IMG/VR virus record: IMGVR_UViG_3300030106_000042
Location: 1 to 30,789 of that record
From: a virus
DNA length: 30,789 bases
Strand: one strand, 5' to 3'
Part shown: positions 429 through 20,313 of the stretch, piece after piece
Numbering within the stretch: position 1 is the stretch's first letter
Layout of the letters: the number at the start of each line of letters is the position of its first letter
Position numbers and translations under genes: made by a program
The notes under the pieces: model-generated
The model's database searches: none
The model's input: only the letters and a program-made list of their open reading frames with translations
What the model was told of the DNA's origin: nothing

Positions 429-1340
429 ATGGCAATATCTAGAAGTCAACTCGTCAAAGAACTAGAGCCTGGTTTGAATGCTCTCTTTGGCTTAGAATAT
501 AATAAATATGAAAACGAACACGCAGAGATCTTTCAAAGTGAAGCATCTGATAGAGCTTTTGAAGAAGAAGTAATGCTAAGTGGTTTCGGTTCTGCTCCAG
601 TAAAACAAGAAGGTGCTAATGTGTCATTTGACCAAGCAACTGAATCTTTTACTGCAAGGTATACACACGAAACTATTGCTATGGCATTTGCTATTACTGA
701 AGAAGCTATTGAAGATAATTTATATGATAGATTAGCATCAAGATACACAAGAGCTTTAGCTAGAAGTATGGCTAATACAAAACAAGTTAAAGCTGCTAAT
801 GTATTAAACAATGCTTTCGATAGTAGTTTCACAGGTGGTGATGGTAAGGAGCTTTGTGCAACTGATCATCCTTTAGCTAATGGTGGTACTTTCAGTAATG
901 AACTTTCTACTGCTGCTGATTTAAGTGAAACTTCATTAGAGCAATCATTAATTGATATAGCTGCATTTGTTGATGAAAGAGGTTTAAAAATTGCTTTACA
1001 AGGAGTAAAGTTAATAATTCCAAAAGAGTTACAGTTTACTGCTGAAAGAATTTTAAAATCTCCACAAAGAGTCGGTACTGCTGACAATGATATTAACGCT
1101 ATGGCTTCAATGGGAATGATCCCACAAGGTTATAGAGTTAATCATTACTTAACAGATACTGATGCTTTCTTCATTATGACTGATGCTCCTAACGGAATGA
1201 AGATGTTTGTTAGAAGTCCAATCAAGACAGCTATTGAAGGAGACTTTGATACTGGTAATGTAAGGTTCAAAGCAAGAGAAAGATATTCATTTGGATTCTC
1301 CGATCCTAGAGGTATATTCGGCTCACCAGGTGCAGCTTAA
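429..1340 (+). CDS. Major capsid protein, Mu gpT-like HK97 fold
   Basis: A 303-residue protein of the size and look of the Mu gpT-like major head subunit family, which has the HK97 fold and forms the icosahedral shell. An acidic N-terminal arm (about residues 1-60) precedes a segment with ITEEAIEDNLYDRL and ALARSMANTKQ (about 90-120), which I recognise from capsid proteins of marine and roseobacter-type phages. This is followed by a C-terminal domain ending in FGFSDPRGIFG. No separate scaffold or maturation protease is visible; these would lie upstream. The ATG at 429 follows a purine-rich GGGGG site. A strong terminator lies directly downstream, so capsid transcripts end here. Confidence 0.85.
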   Translation: MAISRSQLVKELEPGLNALFGLEYNKYENEHAEIFQSEASDRAFEEEVMLSGFGSAPVKQEGANVSFDQATESFTARYTHETIAMAFAITEEAIEDNLYDRLASRYTRALARSMANTKQVKAANVLNNAFDSSFTGGDGKELCATDHPLANGGTFSNELSTAADLSETSLEQSLIDIAAFVDERGLKIALQGVKLIIPKELQFTAERILKSPQRVGTADNDINAMASMGMIPQGYRVNHYLTDTDAFFIMTDAPNGMKMFVRSPIKTAIEGDFDTGNVRFKARERYSFGFSDPRGIFGSPGAA

Positions 1341-2748: not shown

Positions 2749-3354
2749 ATGGGTTTACAACTACAAGTTAAAACCTTTAAACCAGCAGCTGCTTCTACCA
2801 CAAGCGTTGCAGCTGCACAAACTCTTGGAGGAGCAGGTAATATGACTTTAGTAGCAGCAGCAGCCACTGGAGCTTATGCAGGTACTAATGTAGGTTCTAC
2901 TATTAGTTTGACCTCTACTGGAAATATATCTGCAAGAACATTTACTGTCACTGGAACTGATGCTTCTGGTTCTGCTATTACTGAAGATATAACAGGACCT
3001 AATAATACTACAGTTACAGGAAGTGTGTTTTTTTCTACAGTAACTCAAATAGCAGTAGATGGTGCAGTTGGAACTAATACTTCAGTTGGTAATGGTGCAG
3101 ATACAGTTGGAGCTATATTTACTGGAGCAACAAGAGTTAAAGGTGCCCAAATAACAACAGGAGGAACTATATCAGATATTAGTTTCAAAGAATCTTCTCA
3201 AACAGGAACCACTAAATTTTTCTATACTGTGGCTACAACCACAAAAGACTATATGGAACCTTATATACCTGATGAGGGTATTTTGTTTAGAGAAGGAGCT
3301 TTTATAGATTTACCGTCAGGTAGTGTTGTTAGTGCGACAGTATACTATGGATAA
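2749..3354 (+). CDS. Thr/Ala/Gly-rich beta-structured virion protein
   Basis: A 201-residue protein strongly enriched in Thr, Ala, Gly and Ser with almost no charged residues over its first 130 positions. It contains a TFTVTGTDASGSAITEDI segment of an Ig-like or beta-sandwich kind often seen in marine phage structural proteins. The C-terminal 50 residues are more ordinary (KFFYTVATTTKDYMEPYIP) and may be the attachment domain. The good AAGGAG site sits in the 11-base gap after the previous gene. Position suggests a head decoration or fibre protein. No enzyme motif is visible. Its stop codon overlaps the start of the next gene. Confidence 0.5.
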   Translation: MGLQLQVKTFKPAAASTTSVAAAQTLGGAGNMTLVAAAATGAYAGTNVGSTISLTSTGNISARTFTVTGTDASGSAITEDITGPNNTTVTGSVFFSTVTQIAVDGAVGTNTSVGNGADTVGAIFTGATRVKGAQITTGGTISDISFKESSQTGTTKFFYTVATTTKDYMEPYIPDEGILFREGAFIDLPSGSVVSATVYYG

Positions 3355-3655
3355 ATATACAGCAGATCTTCTTAGTTTCAAAAATGGGGGTATGCCTCCT
3401 AGAACTAAGAAGTATTTTAGGTCTACTGAGTCTGGAGCTGGAATGACTAAAGCAGGTGTTGAAAAATACCGAAGAGACAATCCAGGGTCCAAACTCAAGA
3501 CTGCTGTGACTAAAAAAAAGAATTTAACAAAAAAAGAACAAGCAAGAAGAAAATCATTTTGTGCTAGAAGTGCAGGACAAATGAAGAAGTTTCCTAAAGC
3601 AGCTAAAGATCCTAATTCAAGATTAAGACAAGCAAGAAGAAGATGGAGGTGTTAA
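3347..3655 (+). CDS. Small basic protein with C-x-R...C motif
   Basis: The chosen start is ATG 3347, which overlaps the stop of the preceding gene. A longer frame opens at TTG 3323 but lies inside that gene, and an ATG at 3392 after GGGGGT is also possible. The 102-residue product has an N-terminal segment with ESGAGMTKAGVEKYRRDNPG, a Lys-rich linker, and a C-terminal tail with FCARSAGQMKKFPKA and a final RRRWRC. Cys72 and Cys102 are spaced C-x29-C. Proteins with this tail recur in cyanophages and other marine phages as hypothetical proteins of unknown function. High charge and paired cysteines would suit nucleic-acid or zinc binding, but no activity is known to me. It shares a mini-motif with three nearby genes. 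Confidence 0.6.
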   Translation: MDKYTADLLSFKNGGMPPRTKKYFRSTESGAGMTKAGVEKYRRDNPGSKLKTAVTKKKNLTKKEQARRKSFCARSAGQMKKFPKAAKDPNSRLRQARRRWRC

Positions 3656-4114
3656 ATGAAATTATCTGATAACTTTTCTTTAAATGAATTTACTAAATCA
3701 CAAACAGCCTTAAGAAATGGTATAGACAATACACCAAGTGAAGAAGTAATAGAAAACTTAAAAGCATTATGTGAAAATGTTTTGCAACCCATAAGAGAAT
3801 ATTTCTTGATGCCAGTTTTTATATCCTCTGGTTACAGGTCGGCTGCTTTGAATCACAAACTCGGTTCGAGTATCAGCTCACAGCACGTTCAAGGTCAGGC
3901 AGCTGATATTGAAATATTTGGTATTGGTAACAAAGAGCTATCAGATTGGATAAACGACAACTGTGAGTTTGATCAATTAATATTAGAGTTTCATAACGAA
4001 GAAGACCCTAACTCTGGTTGGGTTCATGTGTCTTATAAAAAAGAAGATAATAGAAAACAATATAAGAGAGCAGATAGGAATGAAGAGGGAAAGGTAGAGT
4101 ATACTTTTGTATGA
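3656..4114 (+). CDS. M15-family zinc D-Ala-D-Ala peptidase (endolysin type)
   Basis: A 152-residue single-domain peptidase of the M15 (VanY/M15_3-like) family, which cleaves peptidoglycan stem peptides. FSLNEFTKS near the N-terminus is the usual entry motif. SGYRS (58-62), His77 and Asp84 in QHVQGQAADI, Glu111 in LILEFH and His124 in WVHVS supply the substrate-binding, zinc and catalytic residues. No signal peptide or extra cell-wall domain is present, so it would need a holin to reach the wall as an endolysin, or could act from the virion during entry. It starts on the base after the previous stop (AGGTGTTAAATG), and the downstream small gene overlaps its stop as ATGA. Its place among structural genes leaves both roles open. 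Confidence 0.85.
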   Translation: MKLSDNFSLNEFTKSQTALRNGIDNTPSEEVIENLKALCENVLQPIREYFLMPVFISSGYRSAALNHKLGSSISSQHVQGQAADIEIFGIGNKELSDWINDNCEFDQLILEFHNEEDPNSGWVHVSYKKEDNRKQYKRADRNEEGKVEYTFV

Positions 4115-4266
4115 CGATAGGTAGAAGTCAGATGAGGAAACAAATATCAAATCCTCCACAAAAAAAGAAATGGTCAAAAAAAAGAAAAAGTAAAATAAAT
4201 TGTGCAAGACCAAAAGGATTTAGTGAAAGGGCACACTGTGCCTCAAGAAGAAAGAAAGCAAGGTAG
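4111..4266 (+). CDS. 51-residue basic protein with C-x-R...C motif
   Basis: This short frame begins ATGA at 4111, overlapping the stop of the M15 peptidase gene, and ends at TAG 4266. The product is 51 residues, starts MTIGRSQMRKQ, and ends NCARPKGFSERAHCASRRK before a basic tail. Cys31 and Cys43 are spaced C-x11-C. About 40 percent of residues are Lys or Arg. Near-identical short peptides occur in many marine phages, usually unannotated or hypothetical, and that conservation is why I call it a gene despite its length. The function is unknown. The paired cysteines and charge fit a zinc knuckle or a DNA-compacting peptide. It is one of four neighbouring genes sharing this motif. Confidence 0.7.
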   Translation: MTIGRSQMRKQISNPPQKKKWSKKRKSKINCARPKGFSERAHCASRRKKAR

Positions 4267-4309
4267 ACACAACGAGTGTGAAAGTTTATATTAATAGTAG
4301 GAGTTCATT

Positions 4310-4810
4310 ATGACAAAATTATGCCCAAGAGGAAAAGCAGCTGCTAAAAGAAAATTTAAAGTTTACCCAAGTGCATATGCGAATGCTTACGCATCAAAGG
4401 TTTGTGCAGGAAAAATAAAAGATGACAGGGGAGTTAAAAGAAAAGATTTTAAAGGATCTAAACCATCAGGGTCAAAAGTAGCGAGTGCTGCTAGAAAAGT
4501 TAAAACAGCAAAAATAGGAGGTACTATGAAAGTAAGAAAAGCAGGACTAGGAGCAATTATGCTTTTAAATGAAGTAAGAAAGCAAGGTAAAAAAGAAGGT
4601 AGAAGACAGGCAGCAGAGGGTCAAAGTCAAGATAAACAATATCAAGAGTTTCTTGCTATGAAAGAAAAAGATAATATGACCACTGCAAACAAAGGTAAGT
4701 TTGTAGATATACCACAACAGTCAGGTATGGCAATTGAGTTGTCTATAGATGGAGATGATAGTTTTGTAAATCCTTCTGCACAAGCATACTATAAAGATCT
4801 ATTAAAGTAA
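4310..4810 (+). CDS. Basic protein with C-x-R...C N-terminal motif
   Basis: A 166-residue protein with a good AGGAG site and ATG start. The N-terminal 35 residues hold a compact motif: Cys5 in KLCPRGKAAAKRKF, then VYPSAYANAYA, then Cys32 in KVCAG (C-x26-C). I recognise this block from hypothetical proteins of cyanophages and other marine phages. Residues 35-75 are a Lys-rich linker with KGSKPSGSK. Around residues 80-100 a short hydrophobic stretch (AGLGAIMLLNEV) precedes a charged helix, and the C-terminus is acidic. The product may tether a basic cysteine domain to another virion protein. Its TAA stop overlaps the ATG of the next gene (TAATG), showing translational coupling. Confidence 0.6.
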   Translation: MTKLCPRGKAAAKRKFKVYPSAYANAYASKVCAGKIKDDRGVKRKDFKGSKPSGSKVASAARKVKTAKIGGTMKVRKAGLGAIMLLNEVRKQGKKEGRRQAAEGQSQDKQYQEFLAMKEKDNMTTANKGKFVDIPQQSGMAIELSIDGDDSFVNPSAQAYYKDLLK

Positions 4811-5097
4811 TGTCTGGTTTAGATAAATGGTTTGCTCAAAAGTGGGTGGATATAGGAAGCAAAGACAAAGACGGTAATTTCAAACCCTGTGGTAGAAGTA
4901 AACAAAAAGCAGATGCTAAAAGAAAATATCCAAAGTGTGTTCCTCTTGCAAAGGCTAGAAGAATGACTAAAGGGGAAAGAAAAAGTGCAGTAAGAAGAAA
5001 GAGAGCTAAAGCTCAAGGTGTTGGTGGTAAACCGACTAATGTTAAAACTTTTGCAGTTCAAGGAGGACTAGCAGATTATTATAAAGGAGTAGTGTAA
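4810..5097 (+). CDS. Small basic protein, KWVDI...CGR...YPKC family
   Basis: A 95-residue protein translationally coupled on both sides (TAATG overlaps at 4810 and 5097). It opens with LDKWFAQKWVDIGSK, then Cys27 in PCGRSKQKADAKRKYPKC and Cys43 (C-x15-C), then ARRMTKGERKSAVRRKRAKA and a final PTNVKTFAV. The same layout recurs widely in marine phages and, as I recall, also in large algal DNA viruses, always without a known function. The protein is highly basic, with a probable long helix at residues 50-72. A zinc-binding nucleic-acid or capsid-interior peptide is a reasonable guess only. Its neighbours with the C-x-R motif make a shared role likely. Confidence 0.65.
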   Translation: MSGLDKWFAQKWVDIGSKDKDGNFKPCGRSKQKADAKRKYPKCVPLAKARRMTKGERKSAVRRKRAKAQGVGGKPTNVKTFAVQGGLADYYKGVV

Positions 5098-5591
5098 TGA
5101 CTAATGAAACTAAATTAATAAATGATGTATTGTATAGTTTAAAAGTGCCACCAAAACAAACTCGTCAAAATAAAAAAAGTATGCGTAGATCAGAAAAAAA
5201 CATAAAACGTAATTTATATGATGATGTTCTAAAACCTTTAAAAAATGCAAAAGGTGGTAAAATAGAATTACCAAAAGCAGCTGACTTAGACGGTGATGGA
5301 AATTTTAACGAATATGAAACAGCACGAGGTGAGGCTATTCAAAAAGCTATGGCTAAAGAGAAGGTAGAAACAGCATCTCTTGGTAAAGCAATTAGTAGTA
5401 AACTGCCAGAAATGATTAGTAGATTTCAAGCAGATCAACAAGCAAAAAAAGCAGAAGAAGAAAAAATGTTTCAAGAAATGGTAAAAAGAGAAAAAGCAAA
5501 ATACGGTAACACGCAAAAAATGAAAGAAGGTGGTATAGCCAAAGGTGGTGGTATTGCTATTAAGGGTTTAAAATTTAAAGGTATATTTTAG
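5097..5591 (+). CDS. EF-hand and coiled-coil virion-associated protein
   Basis: A 164-residue protein whose start overlaps the upstream stop (TAATG). Residues 63-74 (DLDGDGNFNEYE) form a complete EF-hand/dockerin-type calcium loop, with Asp63, Asp65, Asp67, Gly68 and Glu74 in the ligand positions. A Lys-rich N-terminal third precedes it. Residues about 105-140 (QADQQAKKAEEEKMFQEM) are a strong coiled-coil candidate. The tail GIAKGGGIAIKGLKFKGIF is a Gly-Lys ending I associate with marine phage structural proteins. A single loop rather than a pair of EF-hands favours a structural calcium site. No enzymatic motif is seen. Position between the basic cysteine proteins and the neck genes suggests a virion component. 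Confidence 0.5.
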   Translation: MTNETKLINDVLYSLKVPPKQTRQNKKSMRRSEKNIKRNLYDDVLKPLKNAKGGKIELPKAADLDGDGNFNEYETARGEAIQKAMAKEKVETASLGKAISSKLPEMISRFQADQQAKKAEEEKMFQEMVKREKAKYGNTQKMKEGGIAKGGGIAIKGLKFKGIF

Positions 5592-5599
5592 GATATTAA

Positions 5600-6286
5600 A
5601 TGGCAACTTCTGGAACAACTGCATTTGATTTAGATATAGACGACATCATTGAAGAAGCATATGAGAGATGTGGTGTTAGAACTAATTCTGGTAAAGATTT
5701 AAAATCTGCAAGAAGAAGTTTAAATATTATGTTATCAGAGTGGGGTAATAGAGGTGTACATTTATGGAAAGTAGAATTAAAAGAACAATTATTAACTGCA
5801 GGAACAGCAACTTATACTGCACCTACTAATGCAAATGATGTTTTAGAGGCTTATGTAAGCACAACGACTGGAACAACCACATCTACTAATGATGTATCTT
5901 TAACTAAAATTAGTAGAAGTGAATATGCTGCATTGCCTAATAAAGGTTCACAAGGACAACCTAGTCAATATTATGTGGATAGACAAACTATTCCAACAAT
6001 TACTTTGTATCAAACTCCAGATGCTTCTACTTATACTTATTTAAAATATTATTATCTTAAAAGAATAGAAGATGCAGGAGCATATACAAATCAAGCAGAT
6101 GTAGTCTTTAGATTTATACCTTGTATGGTATCAGGTTTGGCTTATTACTTAAGTATGAAAAAAAACCCACAATTAGTACAACAACATAAATTACTTTATG
6201 AAGATGAATTACAAAGAGCTTTAACAGAAGATGGACAAAGAACTTCAGTTTATATAACACCACAAAATTATTTTCCACAAGGATAA
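5600..6286 (+). CDS. P22 gp4-like head-tail adaptor (neck) protein
   Basis: A 228-residue protein with an N-terminal motif FDLDIDDIIEEAYERCG, characteristic of the P22 tail accessory factor gp4-like family. That family forms a dodecameric ring under the portal and starts tail assembly. The helix pair with LKSARRSLNIMLSEWGNRG (about residues 34-52) and the later WKVELKEQLLTAG strand fit the family. The long C-terminal helices (FRFIPCMVSGLAYYLSMK) also match. The length is somewhat greater than P22 gp4 because of a beta insertion around residues 70-125. It begins an adaptor cluster with two small proteins immediately downstream. The call is well supported by motif, though made without a search. 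Confidence 0.75.
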   Translation: MATSGTTAFDLDIDDIIEEAYERCGVRTNSGKDLKSARRSLNIMLSEWGNRGVHLWKVELKEQLLTAGTATYTAPTNANDVLEAYVSTTTGTTTSTNDVSLTKISRSEYAALPNKGSQGQPSQYYVDRQTIPTITLYQTPDASTYTYLKYYYLKRIEDAGAYTNQADVVFRFIPCMVSGLAYYLSMKKNPQLVQQHKLLYEDELQRALTEDGQRTSVYITPQNYFPQG

Positions 6287-10738: not shown

Positions 10739-12460
10739 ATGGCAAGTAGTGGAAATTTTACTAAATGGTCTCCTTTATTTAAAGATACTAATTTAGCTTC
10801 TTTAAAAGAAGCATGTACAAGGTTTGATGGCACGACTAATGCCACGAGTGCTTTAACTGATTTTGCCATACCAGTTGGTACTAAGTTTTATGCAGAAGTT
10901 ATAGCTAAGTTAGGTAGTAATTATTACAATATTTTTGGCATAGCTCCACCAGATTTGAATTTAGCAACTTATGCTAGAAATTTAGCTAATGTATATGGTA
11001 TAGAACAAAGGACTAATCCTGGTGCGTACACAATAAATTCAATATCTAATACTACTGTTGGCTCTGATTCAAGTAGCCAAGGAGATTTAGATACACAAGT
11101 ATTAACTTATGGAATAGCAGTTAATAGAGTAGATAACGAAGTAAAACTTTATTTAGATAACACTTTAAAATTTACCTTATCTATTCCTTCTACTGGCGAA
11201 TTTCACTTTATGTGCAGTTTTACTGGTGGAAATAATGCTACATCAGTTCATTACAATTTTAATGGAGGACACGATTCTACGGGAGCTGGTGATAAAACTG
11301 CAGCAAGTAATACAGATGAAAACGGCTTCGGAGAGTTCCAGTACTCGCCACCTTCAGGTCATTTAGCCTGTTGCTCGGCTAACTTACCTACGTCATCTGA
11401 CATAGATCCTGGAGGAGATAATGGAGCAGATGAAAACCCTACTAAACAATTTGGTGTCCTTACTTATTCTGGTGGTACATCAGGTATTACAGGATTAGGA
11501 TTTCAACCAGATTTAGTATGGATTAAAAGAAGAAGTGACGCACAAAGTAATGGATTATTTGATAGTAGTAGAGGAACAAGTAAAGTTTTAAATTCTGATG
11601 GTAACAGTGCAGAAGCAACTTCTTCTGGTTTAACTTCATTTGATAGTGATGGTTATACTATGGGAACATTTTATAATCAAAGTAGTTATACTTATGTAAG
11701 TTGGTGTTGGAAAGCTAACGGAGGAACTACAGCTAGTAATGGAAGTGGATCAATAACTTCTACAGTACAAGCAAATACAAAAGCTGGATTTAGTATAGTT
11801 ACTTATACTGGTAATGATGGTTCTTGGGGTTCTGGTAATAGAGATACTTTTGGGCATGGTCTGTCGGCAGCTCCTGAGTTAATTTTTATAAAAGAAACAA
11901 ATTCAGTAGACCAGTGGACAGTTTTTCATGCTCATGTAGGCAATGGTGGTGGAAGTAATGCAGCAGCAAACAATTTAGTTTTAAATACAAGTGCTGCTTT
12001 ATATACTAATCAAAGTTATAAATCATTTGGTGAAACTATGCCTACTAGCACTTTAGTTACTGTTGAAGGTAACACTACAAATTCAAGCAGTTCTAATCAT
12101 GTAGCGTATTGTTGGCATTCAGTTGATGGCTATAGTAAGTTTGGTTCGTTTGAAGGAAATTCAAATAATGATGGTCCATTTATCTATACAGGTTTTAGAC
12201 CTAGACTATTATTTATAAAAAATATTGATAGTACAAGTCCTTGGGGTGTTTATGATGGAGAAAGACCAGGATTTAATGATTGTGATTTAGGAGCATGGGA
12301 TGAATCAACTGCACTTGATAATAATATAGGTGCTTATCCATTAGACATTTTATCTAATGGATTCAAATTGAAAACGTCAAATGCAACAGTAAACTCTTCA
12401 CATACTTGGGTGTATGGTGCGTGGGCAGACGTTCCTGCAAAATATAATAATGCTTTTTAA
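10739..12460 (+). CDS. SPRY-like plus repeated fibre-tip domains, C-terminal half of split fibre
   Basis: A 573-residue protein starting at ATG 10739 with GGGAG six bases upstream. Residues about 1-190 read as a SPRY/ConA-like domain (KFYAEVIAK, NEVKLYLDNTLKFTLSIP). A linker with FGEFQYSPPSGHLACCSANLP follows. The rest has two related units, each with LxFxPxLxxIKxxxS and a YxWCWK or YCWHSVDGYSKFG block, ending in a conserved HTWVYGAWADVP tail. Such paired units are common at fibre tips of marine phages. Placed directly after the LamG half in the -1 frame, it probably works with that protein as one receptor-binding complex. Confidence 0.7.
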   Translation: MASSGNFTKWSPLFKDTNLASLKEACTRFDGTTNATSALTDFAIPVGTKFYAEVIAKLGSNYYNIFGIAPPDLNLATYARNLANVYGIEQRTNPGAYTINSISNTTVGSDSSSQGDLDTQVLTYGIAVNRVDNEVKLYLDNTLKFTLSIPSTGEFHFMCSFTGGNNATSVHYNFNGGHDSTGAGDKTAASNTDENGFGEFQYSPPSGHLACCSANLPTSSDIDPGGDNGADENPTKQFGVLTYSGGTSGITGLGFQPDLVWIKRRSDAQSNGLFDSSRGTSKVLNSDGNSAEATSSGLTSFDSDGYTMGTFYNQSSYTYVSWCWKANGGTTASNGSGSITSTVQANTKAGFSIVTYTGNDGSWGSGNRDTFGHGLSAAPELIFIKETNSVDQWTVFHAHVGNGGGSNAAANNLVLNTSAALYTNQSYKSFGETMPTSTLVTVEGNTTNSSSSNHVAYCWHSVDGYSKFGSFEGNSNNDGPFIYTGFRPRLLFIKNIDSTSPWGVYDGERPGFNDCDLGAWDESTALDNNIGAYPLDILSNGFKLKTSNATVNSSHTWVYGAWADVPAKYNNAF

Positions 12461-15289: not shown

Positions 15290-15634
15290 ATGGATGTAAA
15301 AAGAGTAGTAAGTTTTGATCAGGGTGTAACTTGGAAAAGCGAACATACCTCTAATCCATATGCTATAGTTTTAAAAGCAAAAAAAATATGGAAATTTACT
15401 AAAACTGAAAATCCAAAAGCATTTAAATTTTTTTCTAGTATTATTAAAGATAATGCTAAAATTTTTAGGTGGGGTTTACAAAAACAAAAATCATTTAAAA
15501 TATTTTATCATAATGAATACTGTTATTTTGAAACACCTGATGCTATAATATATAGAGTAGTAATACAAAAAGATGAAAAAAAGAAAAAAGTAAAAAAAGC
15601 TAAAAATAATAAAAAAGATAAAATGGTGTACTAA
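15290..15634 (+). CDS. Small Lys-rich protein of unknown function
   Basis: A 114-residue protein I do not recognise. The N-terminal 95 residues contain many aromatic residues (IWKFTKTENPKAFKFF, KSFKIFYHNEYCYFE), which suggests a small mixed alpha/beta fold. The last 20 residues are almost all Lys (KKKKVKKAKNNKKDK). It starts three bases after the gp10-like gene. No strong ribosome site is visible, so coupling to the upstream gene is likely. Its stop codon (TAA) overlaps the next ATG. Placement after the hub gene hints at a virion or assembly role only. Confidence 0.5.
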   Translation: MDVKRVVSFDQGVTWKSEHTSNPYAIVLKAKKIWKFTKTENPKAFKFFSSIIKDNAKIFRWGLQKQKSFKIFYHNEYCYFETPDAIIYRVVIQKDEKKKKVKKAKNNKKDKMVY

Positions 15635-15930
15635 TGACAAACAAAAAAAAAGATCCTGTAAAAGGCACAGGTAAAAAACCAAAGAACACAGGAAGAAGAT
15701 TATACACAGATGAAAACCCTAAAGATACAGTAAGTATAAAATTTGCTACTCCAACTGATGCTAGAAAAACTGTTGCAAAGGTTAAAAAATTATCTAAACC
15801 TTTTGCTAGAAAAATACAAATATTAACAGTTATGGAACAACGTGCTAAAGTAATGGGCAAAACAGAAGTTGCAAGAATAGCTAAGGCAGGTAAAGAAGCT
15901 ATACGAAAAAAGGAGAAAAAAATTGGCTAA
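15634..15930 (+). CDS. Conserved small basic protein with GRRLYTDENP motif
   Basis: A 98-residue basic protein coupled to the upstream gene by a TAATG overlap. It opens with VKGTGKKPKNTGRRLYTDEN and PKDTVSIKF, then has KPFARKIQILTVMEQRAKVM and GKTEVARIAKAGKEAIRKKE. I recognise this two-part layout from cyanophages and other marine phages, where it is always hypothetical. The C-terminal two-thirds are probably three short helices. It lacks the cysteine pair of the 3347-5097 group but has similar charge. A run of nine A bases near the start (15643 onward) is a potential slippage point. Function unknown; a nucleic-acid-binding virion or assembly factor is possible. Confidence 0.6.
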   Translation: MTNKKKDPVKGTGKKPKNTGRRLYTDENPKDTVSIKFATPTDARKTVAKVKKLSKPFARKIQILTVMEQRAKVMGKTEVARIAKAGKEAIRKKEKKIG

Positions 15931-16087: not shown

Positions 16088-16434
16088 CAATAAGATACAA
16101 AAATCAAGGTTATAAACAAACTGGTACAGGTAAAACTACGGTGTTTACTTGTCCTAGTGATGCGACAGTTATAGTTAAAAGTATTTACTGTGCAAACAAT
16201 GATAGTTCGTCAGCTATATTAGTTAATATGAATTTTGTAGATTCATCTGACTCAAACACAGAATATGAATTTTTTAGAGATGATGTTCCAGCTAAATCAC
16301 AAGTAAATGCTTCACCTCAAGGTTTAAACTTAGAAGCAGGTGATGCTATTACTGTGCAATCAGCTACTGGTAGTGGTAAAATACAAGGACTAATTAGCTA
16401 TGCTTTGGTTGACCGTTCTCAAGAAAATGGATAA
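16084..16434 (+). CDS. Small beta-structured virion protein
   Basis: The start chosen is ATG 16084, which overlaps the stop of the preceding gene (ATGA). A GTG at 16072 would add four residues but lies deeper in that gene. The 116-residue product opens MTIRYKNQGYKQTGTGKTTV and continues FTCPSDATVIVKSIYCANND, with a later FFRDDVPAKSQ and LNLEAGDAITVQS. It reads as one beta domain and resembles small tail- or fibre-associated proteins I know from marine phages. GTGKTT looks superficially like a P-loop but lies in a beta protein with no other ATPase motif. The 2OG oxygenase gene is coupled to its stop (TAATG). Confidence 0.55.
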   Translation: MTIRYKNQGYKQTGTGKTTVFTCPSDATVIVKSIYCANNDSSSAILVNMNFVDSSDSNTEYEFFRDDVPAKSQVNASPQGLNLEAGDAITVQSATGSGKIQGLISYALVDRSQENG

Positions 16435-16991
16435 TGCAACTTCATCAAGCTATTTTTAAAATAGAAAAAGTTATATCTAAAGACTGGTGTAAAAATCTTA
16501 CTCAATATATGGATATTGTGTGTAGGAATAAAGCAACAGTTTTAATCAACAATAAAAGAGTAGAAGATACAAAACAAAGAAATGTTTATGATTATGGATT
16601 ATCTGATCAAGGACAAGATGTTGATTATAATAAAATTTTGTCAGATGTAATTAAAGATAACATACGTCAATATTTAAAAAGTTTTACTTATTTACTAGAA
16701 CTTAAAATGGAAGGTATAAATTTACTAAAATATACTGAAGGTAATTTTTATAATACACATATTGATTCGTTTCATACTGTTAACAGACAAATATCTATTA
16801 TAATAAATTTAAACGAAAATTATGAAGGGGGAGAAATAGTTTTTATGAACCCTACTACAAGAAAACCATATAGTAAAATAGGTCTAAAAACTGGAGAAAT
16901 GCTAGTGTTTCCAAGTAATTTTATGTATCCTCATCAAGTAACAAAAATTACAAAAGGTATAAGATATAGTTGTGTCAGCTGGTGTTATTAG
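16434..16991 (+). CDS. 2-oxoglutarate/Fe(II)-dependent oxygenase
   Basis: A 185-residue oxygenase of the prolyl 4-hydroxylase-like (P4Hc/PiuC-type) fold. The iron ligands are His109 and Asp111 in YNTHIDSFH and His167 in MYPHQVTKI. Arg177 (KGIRYS), ten residues after the distal His, is the expected 2-oxoglutarate anchor. LNENYEGGEIVF and MLVFPSNFMYPH are typical surrounding strands. The enzyme would couple 2-oxoglutarate decarboxylation to hydroxylation of a protein or other substrate in the cytoplasm. Such genes are common in marine phages, with mostly unknown substrates. It is translationally coupled to the small virion protein upstream, which makes a virion protein one possible target. It is followed by a promoter, so it ends this operon. 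Confidence 0.85.
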   Translation: MQLHQAIFKIEKVISKDWCKNLTQYMDIVCRNKATVLINNKRVEDTKQRNVYDYGLSDQGQDVDYNKILSDVIKDNIRQYLKSFTYLLELKMEGINLLKYTEGNFYNTHIDSFHTVNRQISIIINLNENYEGGEIVFMNPTTRKPYSKIGLKTGEMLVFPSNFMYPHQVTKITKGIRYSCVSWCY

Positions 16992-18052: not shown

Positions 18053-18247
18053 ATGAAAAAAATACAATGTGAAACAAAAGAAGTATATAGAAACAAAAAA
18101 AACAATGTGGTTTATGCCTCTAAAGAAGATGCAGAACACGATATAAACAACCCAAACACAGATACCAAAAGAGAAGATGTCGTAAATGATGTTACCGTCA
18201 TAGTGCCACCAGAGGCTTTATCTTTAGTCTCAGATACACAAAAATGA
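18053..18247 (+). CDS. 64-residue conserved small phage protein
   Basis: The start chosen is ATG 18053; a TTG at 18014 lies within the terminator tail and is unlikely. The product opens MKKIQCETKEVYRNKKNNVV and YASKEDAEHDINNPNTDT, then ends with VNDVTVIVPPEALSL. I recognise this pattern from short hypothetical proteins of marine phages and, as I recall, T4-like cyanophages. It is mixed charge with no membrane segment. Its stop overlaps the ATG of the SET-domain gene (ATGA), so the two are translated together. No convincing promoter is visible in the 38 bases between the terminator and the start. A weak TTGCTC/TAATTA pair is the best candidate. Confidence 0.6.
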   Translation: MKKIQCETKEVYRNKKNNVVYASKEDAEHDINNPNTDTKREDVVNDVTVIVPPEALSLVSDTQK

Positions 18248-18561
18248 AAATTCAATATAACAAATTTTATTACAATCCTTTGCCTGATGATTTATCTATT
18301 CGTAAAAGTGATATTCATGGGCATGGAATATTTGCTAATAAAGAAATTAAAAAAGATCAAGATTTGGGAAGCACACACATTAAAGTTCCTATGATATTAG
18401 GTTATATCAGAACACCGTTAGGTGGTTTTCTTAATCATTCAAACAAACCAAATTGTGTTTTAGAAGTTACAAGAGATTGGGATGATTATATTATTTATAA
18501 TGTATTTACTACTAGACTTATTAAAAAGAATGAAGAGTTGTTACTAGAGTATGGTGCTTGA
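18244..18561 (+). CDS. SET-domain protein (predicted protein lysine methyltransferase)
   Basis: A compact 105-residue SET domain. GHGIFANKEIKKDQDLG (26-42) is the N-terminal SET motif with the usual G-x-G-x-F/Y/V-A turn. GGFLNHSNKPNC (60-71) contains the N-H-S motif that binds S-adenosylmethionine. NEELLLEYG (96-104) is the C-terminal E-L-x-x-x-Y motif with Tyr103 as the candidate catalytic residue. No pre-SET or post-SET cysteine clusters are present. SET enzymes methylate lysines in proteins such as histones and ribosomal subunits. The target in a bacteriophage is unknown. The gene is coupled to its neighbours on both sides by stop-start overlaps and lies directly before two glycosyltransferase genes. 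Confidence 0.75.
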   Translation: MKIQYNKFYYNPLPDDLSIRKSDIHGHGIFANKEIKKDQDLGSTHIKVPMILGYIRTPLGGFLNHSNKPNCVLEVTRDWDDYIIYNVFTTRLIKKNEELLLEYGA

Positions 18562-19490
18562 TGTTACCTAGAGGTGGAACAGAAATACAACATCATTTTT
18601 TATCACATTATGTAGATGAAAAACTACTATCTAATTTTCAGATATGTACATCTATACCAAATAAAGTTCCGATACTAGAAGATAAAATAAATATATTGTG
18701 GCAAAAAAATAGTTATGATCAACCTAATATATACCCTTGGTTTGAAGATAAAACTAACCACGACAAATTTGATTGGTATGTTTTTAATTCACATTGGAAC
18801 TATGAAAAGTTTAGATATAAGTTTGATGTCCCTACTCATAAGTGTCACGTTATAAAAAACGGAGTTACAAACTTTCCTGATATGATACCTTACAAAGAAG
18901 GCGAAACAGTAAGAATGTTATTTCACGTTACTCCTTGGAGAGGTTTAAATGTATTATTAGGAGCTATGCAACAATTACAAGATTGTAATGTGCATCTAGA
19001 CGTATTTAGTAGTTGTAAGATTTATGGAGAAGAATTTGAAAAAGCAAACGAACATATTTATGAACCATTGTATGAACAAGCAAGAAAACTAGAAAATGTT
19101 AATTATATAGGATATAAAGAACATTCTTTCATACAAAAATTTTTATATCGTTATCATATGTTTGCTTATCCTAGTATATGGGAAGAAACTAGCTGTAATG
19201 CAGCTCTTGAAGCAATGGCTAGTGGGTTATATTGTATTGTTACTAACTTTGGTGCATTGTATGAAACGTGTTCTGAGTTTCCTGTGTATGTAACCTATGA
19301 TAAAAACTATCGTAATTTAGCTACTGCTTTTGCTCACGCTATTAGAGGTGCAGTAGACCATATGCACGAACCACGAATACAGGAACATTTACTTATGCAA
19401 CAAAACTTTGTTAAAAGATTTTATAGTTGGGAAAAGAAAAAATTAGAATGGACAAGTTTTTTACAAGGAGCCTTAGATGCAAAATCATGA
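18561..19490 (+). CDS. GT4-family (GT-B) glycosyltransferase
   Basis: The start chosen is ATG 18561, which overlaps the SET-gene stop (TGATG); TTG 18558 would add one residue. The 309-residue protein has the GT-B layout of family GT4. An N-terminal nucleotide-fold half begins LPRGGTEIQHHFLSH. The hinge holds HVTPWRGLNVLLGAM at about 120. The C-terminal half carries the sugar-nucleotide motif E209-x7-E217 in WEETSCNAALEAMASG, followed by IVTNFGALYE. The donor is a nucleotide sugar; the acceptor cannot be read from sequence. It overlaps the next glycosyltransferase gene by 14 bases, which suggests that the two enzymes act in sequence on one glycan or protein. Confidence 0.85.
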   Translation: MLPRGGTEIQHHFLSHYVDEKLLSNFQICTSIPNKVPILEDKINILWQKNSYDQPNIYPWFEDKTNHDKFDWYVFNSHWNYEKFRYKFDVPTHKCHVIKNGVTNFPDMIPYKEGETVRMLFHVTPWRGLNVLLGAMQQLQDCNVHLDVFSSCKIYGEEFEKANEHIYEPLYEQARKLENVNYIGYKEHSFIQKFLYRYHMFAYPSIWEETSCNAALEAMASGLYCIVTNFGALYETCSEFPVYVTYDKNYRNLATAFAHAIRGAVDHMHEPRIQEHLLMQQNFVKRFYSWEKKKLEWTSFLQGALDAKS

Positions 19491-20313
19491 ACCTATATAC
19501 TCTCCTGATGCTGATTGGGTTGACAATAAAAAAATAAAACTATTCGTAGCAACACCTGTACATAGTGAGGTATCTATACACTATATGCAATCGGTGTTTA
19601 AACTACAAGCTAAGTGTAACGAAAAAAAAATACCTATTACGTTACAACTTATGAAATCCTCTTTAGTAACACAAGGTCGTAATTTATGTGTATCTGAATT
19701 TTTAAATTCTGGTTATACACACTTGTTGTTTATAGATAGTGATATATTATTCAATGCTGACTCTATATTTAAGATGTTAGAAAAAGATCAAGAGGTGCTT
19801 AGTATTCCTTATCCTATGAAGGTTATACAATGGGATAAAATTTTGAACAAATGGAAAGGTATACCTAGTATGAATGATACACAAGCAAAAACCAGTGGTA
19901 ATATGTTTCCTGTCCGTATTAAAGATAAAGAAGATGATATAACTGTTACAAATGGTATGATTGAATTATCTCATTCTATGACTGGTTGTTTATTAATTAA
20001 AAGAGAAGCATTAGAAAAAATGGCAAAAGCATATCCAGACTTGATTATAAAGCAAGAAACAATGATAGACGGAGAGAAACAATTACGCAAAAACTTGTAT
20101 AACTTTTTCGATACTTACTACGATCCAGAAGAAAAACTGTATCTAGGTGAGGATTTTGCTTTTTCACGATTATGGACAAAAATAGGTGGTAAGTGTATGG
20201 CTCTTATAAATGAGTACATTACTCACGTTGGAGAATATCAGTTTACTGGTAGATTAATAGACGAAATGGTAGCAATTCCCACAGATAGTATTGATACTTC
20301 AACTAAGAAATAG
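19477..20313 (+). CDS. GT-A glycosyltransferase
   Basis: A 278-residue enzyme with a GT-A fold. LFVATPVHSEVSIHYMQSV opens the nucleotide-binding half. TQGRNLCVSEFLNSGYTHLL leads to FIDSDILF with the metal-binding D87-S88-D89 (DxD) motif. MTGCLLIKREALEKM and YLGEDFAFSRLW form the acceptor side, with the Glu-Asp pair a likely catalytic base. The layout resembles GT2 and Anp1-like enzymes often coded by marine phages. An AAGGAG site lies within the preceding gene, which it overlaps by 14 bases. Possible substrates are fibre proteins, phage DNA bases or host envelope sugars; the sequence does not decide. Confidence 0.8.
   Translation: MQNHEPIYSPDADWVDNKKIKLFVATPVHSEVSIHYMQSVFKLQAKCNEKKIPITLQLMKSSLVTQGRNLCVSEFLNSGYTHLLFIDSDILFNADSIFKMLEKDQEVLSIPYPMKVIQWDKILNKWKGIPSMNDTQAKTSGNMFPVRIKDKEDDITVTNGMIELSHSMTGCLLIKREALEKMAKAYPDLIIKQETMIDGEKQLRKNLYNFFDTYYDPEEKLYLGEDFAFSRLWTKIGGKCMALINEYITHVGEYQFTGRLIDEMVAIPTDSIDTSTKK

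Follow-up and report, generated by a model that had tools for sequence, protein, structure and literature searches.

A set of small basic proteins from marine podovirus-type phages recurs as modules of a single chain in T4-like cyanophages

Bacteriophage T4 has small basic internal proteins, each of them packed in about 300 copies, and its protease gp21 cuts head proteins after L/I-x-E (PMC9026906). A second described type, the polyvalent proteins, are strings of shuffled domains in one polypeptide, for which delivery together with the DNA has been proposed (PMC5512222). Cyanophages are also known to carry an uncharacterised protein cluster, T4-GC 119 (GenBank notes; Sullivan et al. 2010, PMC3037559). 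Here we compare these systems with four small genes in a 30,789-nucleotide stretch of viral DNA (IMG/VR record IMGVR_UViG_3300030106_000042, positions 1 to 30,789), which we call the window and which forms a block of head and tail genes of marine podovirus type. Our results show that the four genes form one set: all four of their modules occur in one chain in T4-like cyanophages, and this chain is T4-GC 119 itself. The genes lie inside the head gene block of the window, and a fifth member of the set is found at a distance from them:

3347..3655, + strand: module E gene; DUF6321 protein of 102 residues, lysine plus arginine (K+R) 30%, isoelectric point (pI) 11.1, CAR, C-x29-C ending in the C-terminal Cys
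4111..4266, + strand: module A gene; 51 residues, K+R 37%, pI 12.0, CAR, C-x11-C (KSKINCARPKGFSERAHCASRRKK)
4310..4810, + strand: module C gene; 166 residues, K+R 22%, pI 10.1, CPR, N-terminal C-x26-C (VYPSAYANAYASKVC) plus a basic tail; phrog_27331
4810..5097, + strand: module B gene; 95 residues, K+R 27%, pI 10.5, CGR, C-x15-C; phrog_23735, 727, 12753, 3477
15634..15930, + strand: module F gene, the further member; LYTDENPKDT, no Cys, pI 10.7

An initial annotation of the window had described the first four genes, and direct reading bears out their coordinates, basic composition, Cys counts and spacings and overlapping starts. Each gene begins with ATG, and its product has two Cys and no more; x-Arg comes directly after the first of them, and in three of the proteins [FY]P is located between the two, as had been noted. 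Gene 4111 overlaps an M15 endolysin gene through ATGA, and genes 4810 and 5097 start on TAATG. The same annotation held that no described family existed. This has to be narrowed, since gene 3347 is Pfam DUF6321 (PF19846; 54 bits, E 2.6e-14, with a gathering cut-off of 28.5 bits) and genes 3347, 4310 and 4810 match PHROGs without assigned function; it stands in so far as no operon-level or polyprotein account was found in the literature searched. In the Pfam scan of the window genes of the set DUF6321 was the sole family found, none of genes 4111, 4310 and 4810 matching it, and NCBIfam gave no match above a cut-off. Gene 4111 has no Pfam or PHROG match and no family in the libraries used. DUF5872, considered as a possible relative, is not matched by the set proteins.

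Much of the material is thus already known in pieces. DUF6321 (which holds gene 3347) and PHROGs 727, 3477, 4689, 10346, 12753, 23735 (gene 4810) and 27331 (gene 4310) contain set members, but they come without a function and do not join separate genes, chain, cut sites and virion data as one system. T4-GC 119 is an uncharacterised cluster, and in the accessible part of its source we found neither the module structure nor the cut sites nor a link to pelagiphages (PMC3037559). The literature searched does not mention DUF6321 and contains no paper describing the set as such.

The fused form is found between the terminase small and large genes of T4-like cyanophages. In Synechococcus phage S-SRM01 the chain is gp206, 609 residues long, with the modules A-B-C'-O-H-D-E, where C' denotes the cyanophage form of C. 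S-SM2_109, also between the terminase genes, reads F-H-B-C'-D-E, and A stands at the end of the preceding gene, SSM2_108. D, O, H and F are thus further modules of these chains, and O has a third Cys in addition to its C-x2-C motif. The loci fetched contain 139 chains with at least four modules; because each locus search was confined to the best 80 loci, such counts are not a census. Module order varies, and E, which corresponds to the DUF6321 domain of gene 3347, is nearly always last. Modules A to E have mean net charges of +5.5 to +15.9, and the chains match PHROG 727/3477. Searched as single sequences, the window proteins retrieve cyanophage loci in the case of A (phmmer, 59 cyanophage-locus matches, best 2.2e-11), E (1.8e-18), F (1.5e-9) and, weakly, B (8e-4); the module F gene also matches the N-terminal module of S-SM2_109 in a hidden Markov model (HMM) search (3.6e-30). 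For C the first phmmer round gave no direct match to C', and the link is based on profile comparison (79% probability, E 1.5e-5) and on later iterations of the search, which bridged the two further. In the three chains scanned with Pfam, only DUF6321, DUF192 and DUF5661 were above cut-off. The DUF192 domain of S-SM2_109 (L003:7802-9928) and the DUF5661 domain of S-SRM01 gp206 (L002:9295-11124) lie between basic modules.

We think it probable that the set consists of mini-proteins that are strongly basic and unrelated to one another, most having one Cys pair, and that these are packaged in the head with the DNA, the cyanophage precursor being cut by gp21. In the T4-GC 119 family the modules would be made as one precursor chain, which would enter the prohead; there the prohead protease gp21 would cut at hydrophobic-x-Glu sites in the linkers and free the modules, and the linkers would be lost. 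Podoviruses such as the window's, like one T7-like cyanophage, encode the same modules as separate late genes next to the capsid genes, and these would need no cutting. The mini-proteins may neutralise or condense DNA, possibly with ejection into the host. We propose a cut precursor because the modules are shared, because candidate sites precede them, and because the distances from site to module and from start Met to module are close for B and E. Whether all of this amounts to a packaged-polyprotein strategy, in which a cyanophage precursor yields single-disulphide basic mini-proteins that unrelated marine podoviruses carry as interchangeable separate genes, is a question on which we would put equal weight on either answer.

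By analogy, the set would work most like the T4 internal head proteins. IPI, IPII and IPIII (and Alt) are small, basic and virion-borne, and the T4 versions are cut by gp21 after L/I-x-E (PMC9026906), candidate sites of similar form being present in the cyanophage chains. The four window proteins share the small basic character (pI 10.1-12.0). Detection in purified virions is published for a homologous chain, S-CREM2 ORF137, and not for the podovirus genes. In contrast to the marine modules, which share one precursor or stand alone, the T4 proteins come from separate genes and have a short N-terminal targeting peptide, and the Cys pairs belong to the marine modules. No homology to the T4 proteins surfaced in the Pfam scans of window genes and chains, in which no direct comparison with the internal protein sequences was included.

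The sites themselves are concentrated in the linkers with which the basic modules alternate. Linkers contain [LI]-x-E 235 times in 14,328 residues, and modules once in 14,445. In non-redundant windows of at most 22 residues before the modules, [LIVMF]-x-E is present in 33/35 cases for B, 28/29 for C', 47/47 for D and 11/14 for E, that is in 79-100% of the windows, versus 101/286 (35%) inside linkers. When other spacings or residues were used as controls, most counts were close to the shuffled null or under it, with small excesses for hxxE (B, C', D), hxxxE (E) and hxD (D) at z 2.0-2.7, where h is a hydrophobic residue. Examples of candidate sites are VSE|GTLHHWF, LNE|AQKDK before CYHK, IDE|KCW and LSE|DWQKVNR. 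From the last site to the module there are 2 residues in B and 12 in E; from the Met to the module in free genes there are 4 and 15. Cyanophage gp23 has ILTE (S-SM1) or MIAE (S-SM2) shortly before its conserved segment, which we take to be near the position at which T4 gp23 is processed.

If the chain were not cut, it could be a virion or ejection protein that is delivered whole, its modules acting on host targets in the manner of a polyvalent-protein-like effector, while the podovirus products would be delivered singly. Effectors delivered by phages are indeed typically built as multidomain strings with shuffled modules (PMC5512222), T4 packages IPI and Alt, which then act in the host (PMC9026906), and some chains include a DUF192 or DUF5661 domain. 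Against this speak the hydrophobic-x-Glu sites directly before the modules, the tiny and highly basic nature of the modules, and the fact that apart from DUF192, DUF5661 and DUF6321 no chain domain passed the Pfam cut-off. The polyvalent proteins differ from the chain, as no embedded peptidase or effector enzyme was found by Pfam in the three chains; the marine chain would moreover be cut by the prohead protease, and its modules also exist as free genes. We therefore regard whole delivery as unlikely.

As free genes, the modules are not independently distributed either. Pelagiphage-type contigs have C-B-E(-F) side by side, not far from capsid and adaptor genes: C is followed by B within 300 bp in 136/142 pairs and B by E in 59/63, and in many contigs F comes shortly downstream of E (within 300 bp in 38/50 pairs). 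B, C and E occur together in 123 contigs; 51 of these also encode a protein related to the window capsid protein, and 43 one related to the adaptor. D is fused to B in 15 open reading frames (ORFs). The survey of genome neighbourhoods proposed in the initial annotation came out in favour of a set, since the four genes are fused in cyanomyoviruses and syntenic as separate genes elsewhere. In phage HTVC023P (L001) the slot of module A (12319-12459) holds a different small basic gene without Cys, so the slots of the cluster seem to be refilled by other genes. Another small, basic, Cys-bearing gene (KCNSPRR...VVKACKGGKEKIIRYG) adjoins the endolysin gene of HTVC106P (L008, 4005-4244), near C and B; it has no Pfam match.

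The T7-like cyanophage P-SCSP2 has C-, B- and E-like copies between its scaffold and capsid genes (C found by search, B and E by eye). This position is what one might expect if the proteins were scaffold-like factors of an assembly core, whose basic modules attach to the acidic scaffold or to the inside of the capsid and direct how the head assembles, with packaging as a by-product, and T4 IPIII does affect head assembly (PMC9026906). Yet the cyanophage chain gene lies at the terminase and not beside gp21-gp23, and the composition of the modules suits DNA at least equally well. An assembly role as the main function appears quite improbable to us.

Detection of a homologous chain in virions has been reported for S-CREM2: ORF137 (108049-109521) is listed in the mass spectrometry (MS) table of its virion with 4 unique peptides and 4.1% coverage (PMC10665884 Table 3). 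It is located between the terminase genes, carries a DUF6321 match at 109306-109518, and has E as its sole recognisable module, preceded by MNE|DWQ. In S-SCSM1, the B-C'-D-O-E chain SSCSM1_29 is labelled 'virion protein' in the record; 45 virion proteins of this phage were detected by MS (PMC9602691), and we infer that the label marks those proteins. The S-SM2 record bears the note 'similar to Synechococcus phage S-SM1 protein' on 18/278 features (gp3, 4, 6, 13, 14, 15, 18, 19, 20, 21, 23, 25, 53, GC15, GC190, GC1038, the VrlC protein GC400, and GC119). GC119 aside, these are recognised structural proteins or proteins named as detected, with the exception of VrlC, and the replication and metabolic genes are without the note. 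The note seems to mark proteins detected in virions, because the S-SM1 virion proteome paper, in the part available, names gp4, 14, 21, 25, 53, GC15 and GC190 among those detected. The suggestion in the initial annotation of a packaged set thus gains support from fusion in one cyanomyovirus chain, from synteny of the free genes and from a homologous chain detected by MS in purified virions. The free-standing versions are presumably packaged too, including those of the window's own phage.

Several points weigh against packaged mini-proteins cut from a precursor. The MS coverage of S-CREM2 is just 4.1%, from a chain with module E alone of those recognisable, and the virion evidence for S-SCSM1 and S-SM1 would rest on record labels; virion data for podovirus versions, including the window's own relatives, were looked for and none were found. 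Nor has a cleavage product of the chain been observed so far. The broader motif, with L/I/V/M/F in place of L/I, was adopted once the data had been inspected. Strict [LI]-x-E is enriched but not universal, being present in 30-residue windows in 35/93 cases for B (null 19), 67/91 for C' (26), 59/86 for D (30) and 47/96 for E (18). Interior linkers are also mildly enriched (z 4.1), and since windows and loci share ancestry, the z-scores overstate independence. Finally, module A is the least constant member, occurring in only 28/225 podovirus-type loci.

The four genes had initially been taken to carry variants of one C-x-R...[FY]P...C mini-domain. This idea is refuted, because there is no profile similarity between the modules, because their predicted folds differ, and because C-x-R and the aromatic-Pro are lost in homologues. 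The profile-profile comparison that had been suggested (hhalign between modules A, B, C, D and E) gave probabilities of at most about 10%. In podovirus-type homologues C-x-R is kept in 17/22 rows of A, 172/179 of B, 22/29 of C and 126/126 of E, and in cyanophage homologues in 0/41 of A, 31/107 of B, 0/75 of C' and 100/100 of E. The aromatic-Pro is retained in both phage groups only for C/C', and never in A; it is found in 108/126 podovirus-type and 0/100 cyanophage copies of E, and in 150/179 and 0/107 of B.

Structure prediction, also suggested earlier, points the same way. AlphaFold2 models of a cyanophage chain (72-sequence alignment) show confident modules alternating with low-confidence linkers, with two predicted helices in A, three in F, short strands plus helices in B, two helices around a Pro in C', a beta hairpin in D and helices in E. 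Predicted alone (119 sequences), module B again has strands plus helices (mean predicted local distance difference test score 74), and its model resembles the predicted fold of the S-SCSM1 'virion protein' (Foldseek prob 0.75, E 0.09). Its invariant residues are W7, W12, C27, C43 and K64 (119-sequence alignment of free and fused copies). Profiles A1, A2 (module B) and A3 (module E) have no solved-structure relatives at a meaningful E-value, and a PDB fold search with the chain and module B models gave no match.

The invariant feature is the Cys pair, set in differing sequence contexts. Nearly all copies of modules A to E have exactly two Cys, and no unique row of A, B, C, D or E has only one of the two. 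Judged from sequence, the pair would fit a disulphide better than a zinc finger, because there are two Cys per module and never one alone, and each module may form one disulphide. With two Cys per module, a stand-alone four-Cys zinc site is therefore excluded for most copies. A minority of podovirus-type and cyanophage copies of E have two extra Cys, which appear together in the alignment and would fit disulphides or a metal site.

These Cys counts also bear on the possibility that the proteins, rather than being destined for the virion, bind zinc or DNA and regulate late transcription or packaging. Such a role would agree with a chain gene adjoining the terminase and with basic, Cys-bearing modules, among them O with its C-x2-C and third Cys. 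Two Cys in A to E are too few for a stand-alone zinc site, though, and the S-CREM2 chain is in purified virions, from whose table TerS and TerL are absent (PMC10665884 Table 3), so that we consider regulators very unlikely. Lastly, that unrelated small basic orphan genes resemble each other by chance is scarcely credible: the modules do lack mutual profile similarity, their predicted folds differ and A is often missing, but coincidence is largely refuted by the repeated fusion in one chain, and tight synteny speaks against it as well.

The set is widespread, its genes being present in hundreds of cyanophage records. Gene 3347 is matched by 494 phage records and the S-SM2 chain by 487, and very many marine viral contigs carry set genes among the matches listed; the genome contig search added 10 contigs from metagenome-assembled genomes or single-cell assemblies that match gene 3347. 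In the records examined, set genes are annotated as hypothetical or carry no more than the label virion or structural protein. If the packaged mini-protein interpretation is true, the set would supply head-interior proteins to some of the most abundant phages in the ocean, and its cut sites would be defined and open to testing. It would also be a rare case in which one phage group makes as a single precursor what others make as separate genes. If the packaged-polyprotein strategy is real, phage families would share and shuffle a repertoire of head-interior proteins.

The best-covered annotated relatives of the window in protein searches include Pelagibacter phages HTVC023P and HTVC027P, phage 023Pt_psg01 and phage DSL-LC04; in its own genome record, a search retrieved nothing besides the window. 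Around the set, the window encodes:

429..1340, + strand: major capsid protein (PF25209 E=1.2e-12; phrog_371)
3656..4114, + strand: M15 peptidase / endolysin, embedded in the cluster but outside the set (PF08291 E=6.7e-19; phrog_894 endolysin)
5600..6286, + strand: SU10-type head-tail adaptor (PF24175 E=2.2e-11)

In many contigs of the neighbourhood comparison the adaptor gene comes after module B. Directly 3' of the module B gene, positions 5097-5591 of the window encode a Lys-rich 164-residue protein in which an EF-hand-like loop (DLDGDGNFNEYE) can be read by eye, and the gene in the matching position in HTVC023P has a weak EF-hand match. Calcium-binding companion proteins may form part of the set. 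Farther away, at 18244-18561, a 105-residue ORF has a SET domain (PF00856 E=1.5e-9) of the lysine methyltransferase type; the phage encodes many Lys-rich proteins, and the ORF has no second copy among the loci fetched. The window also encodes a 2-oxoglutarate (2OG)-Fe(II) oxygenase at 16434-16991 (PF13640 E=9e-17) and, at 18558-20313, a glycosyltransferase (PF00534) and, after it, a gene with no Pfam match whose product looks like a second glycosyltransferase.

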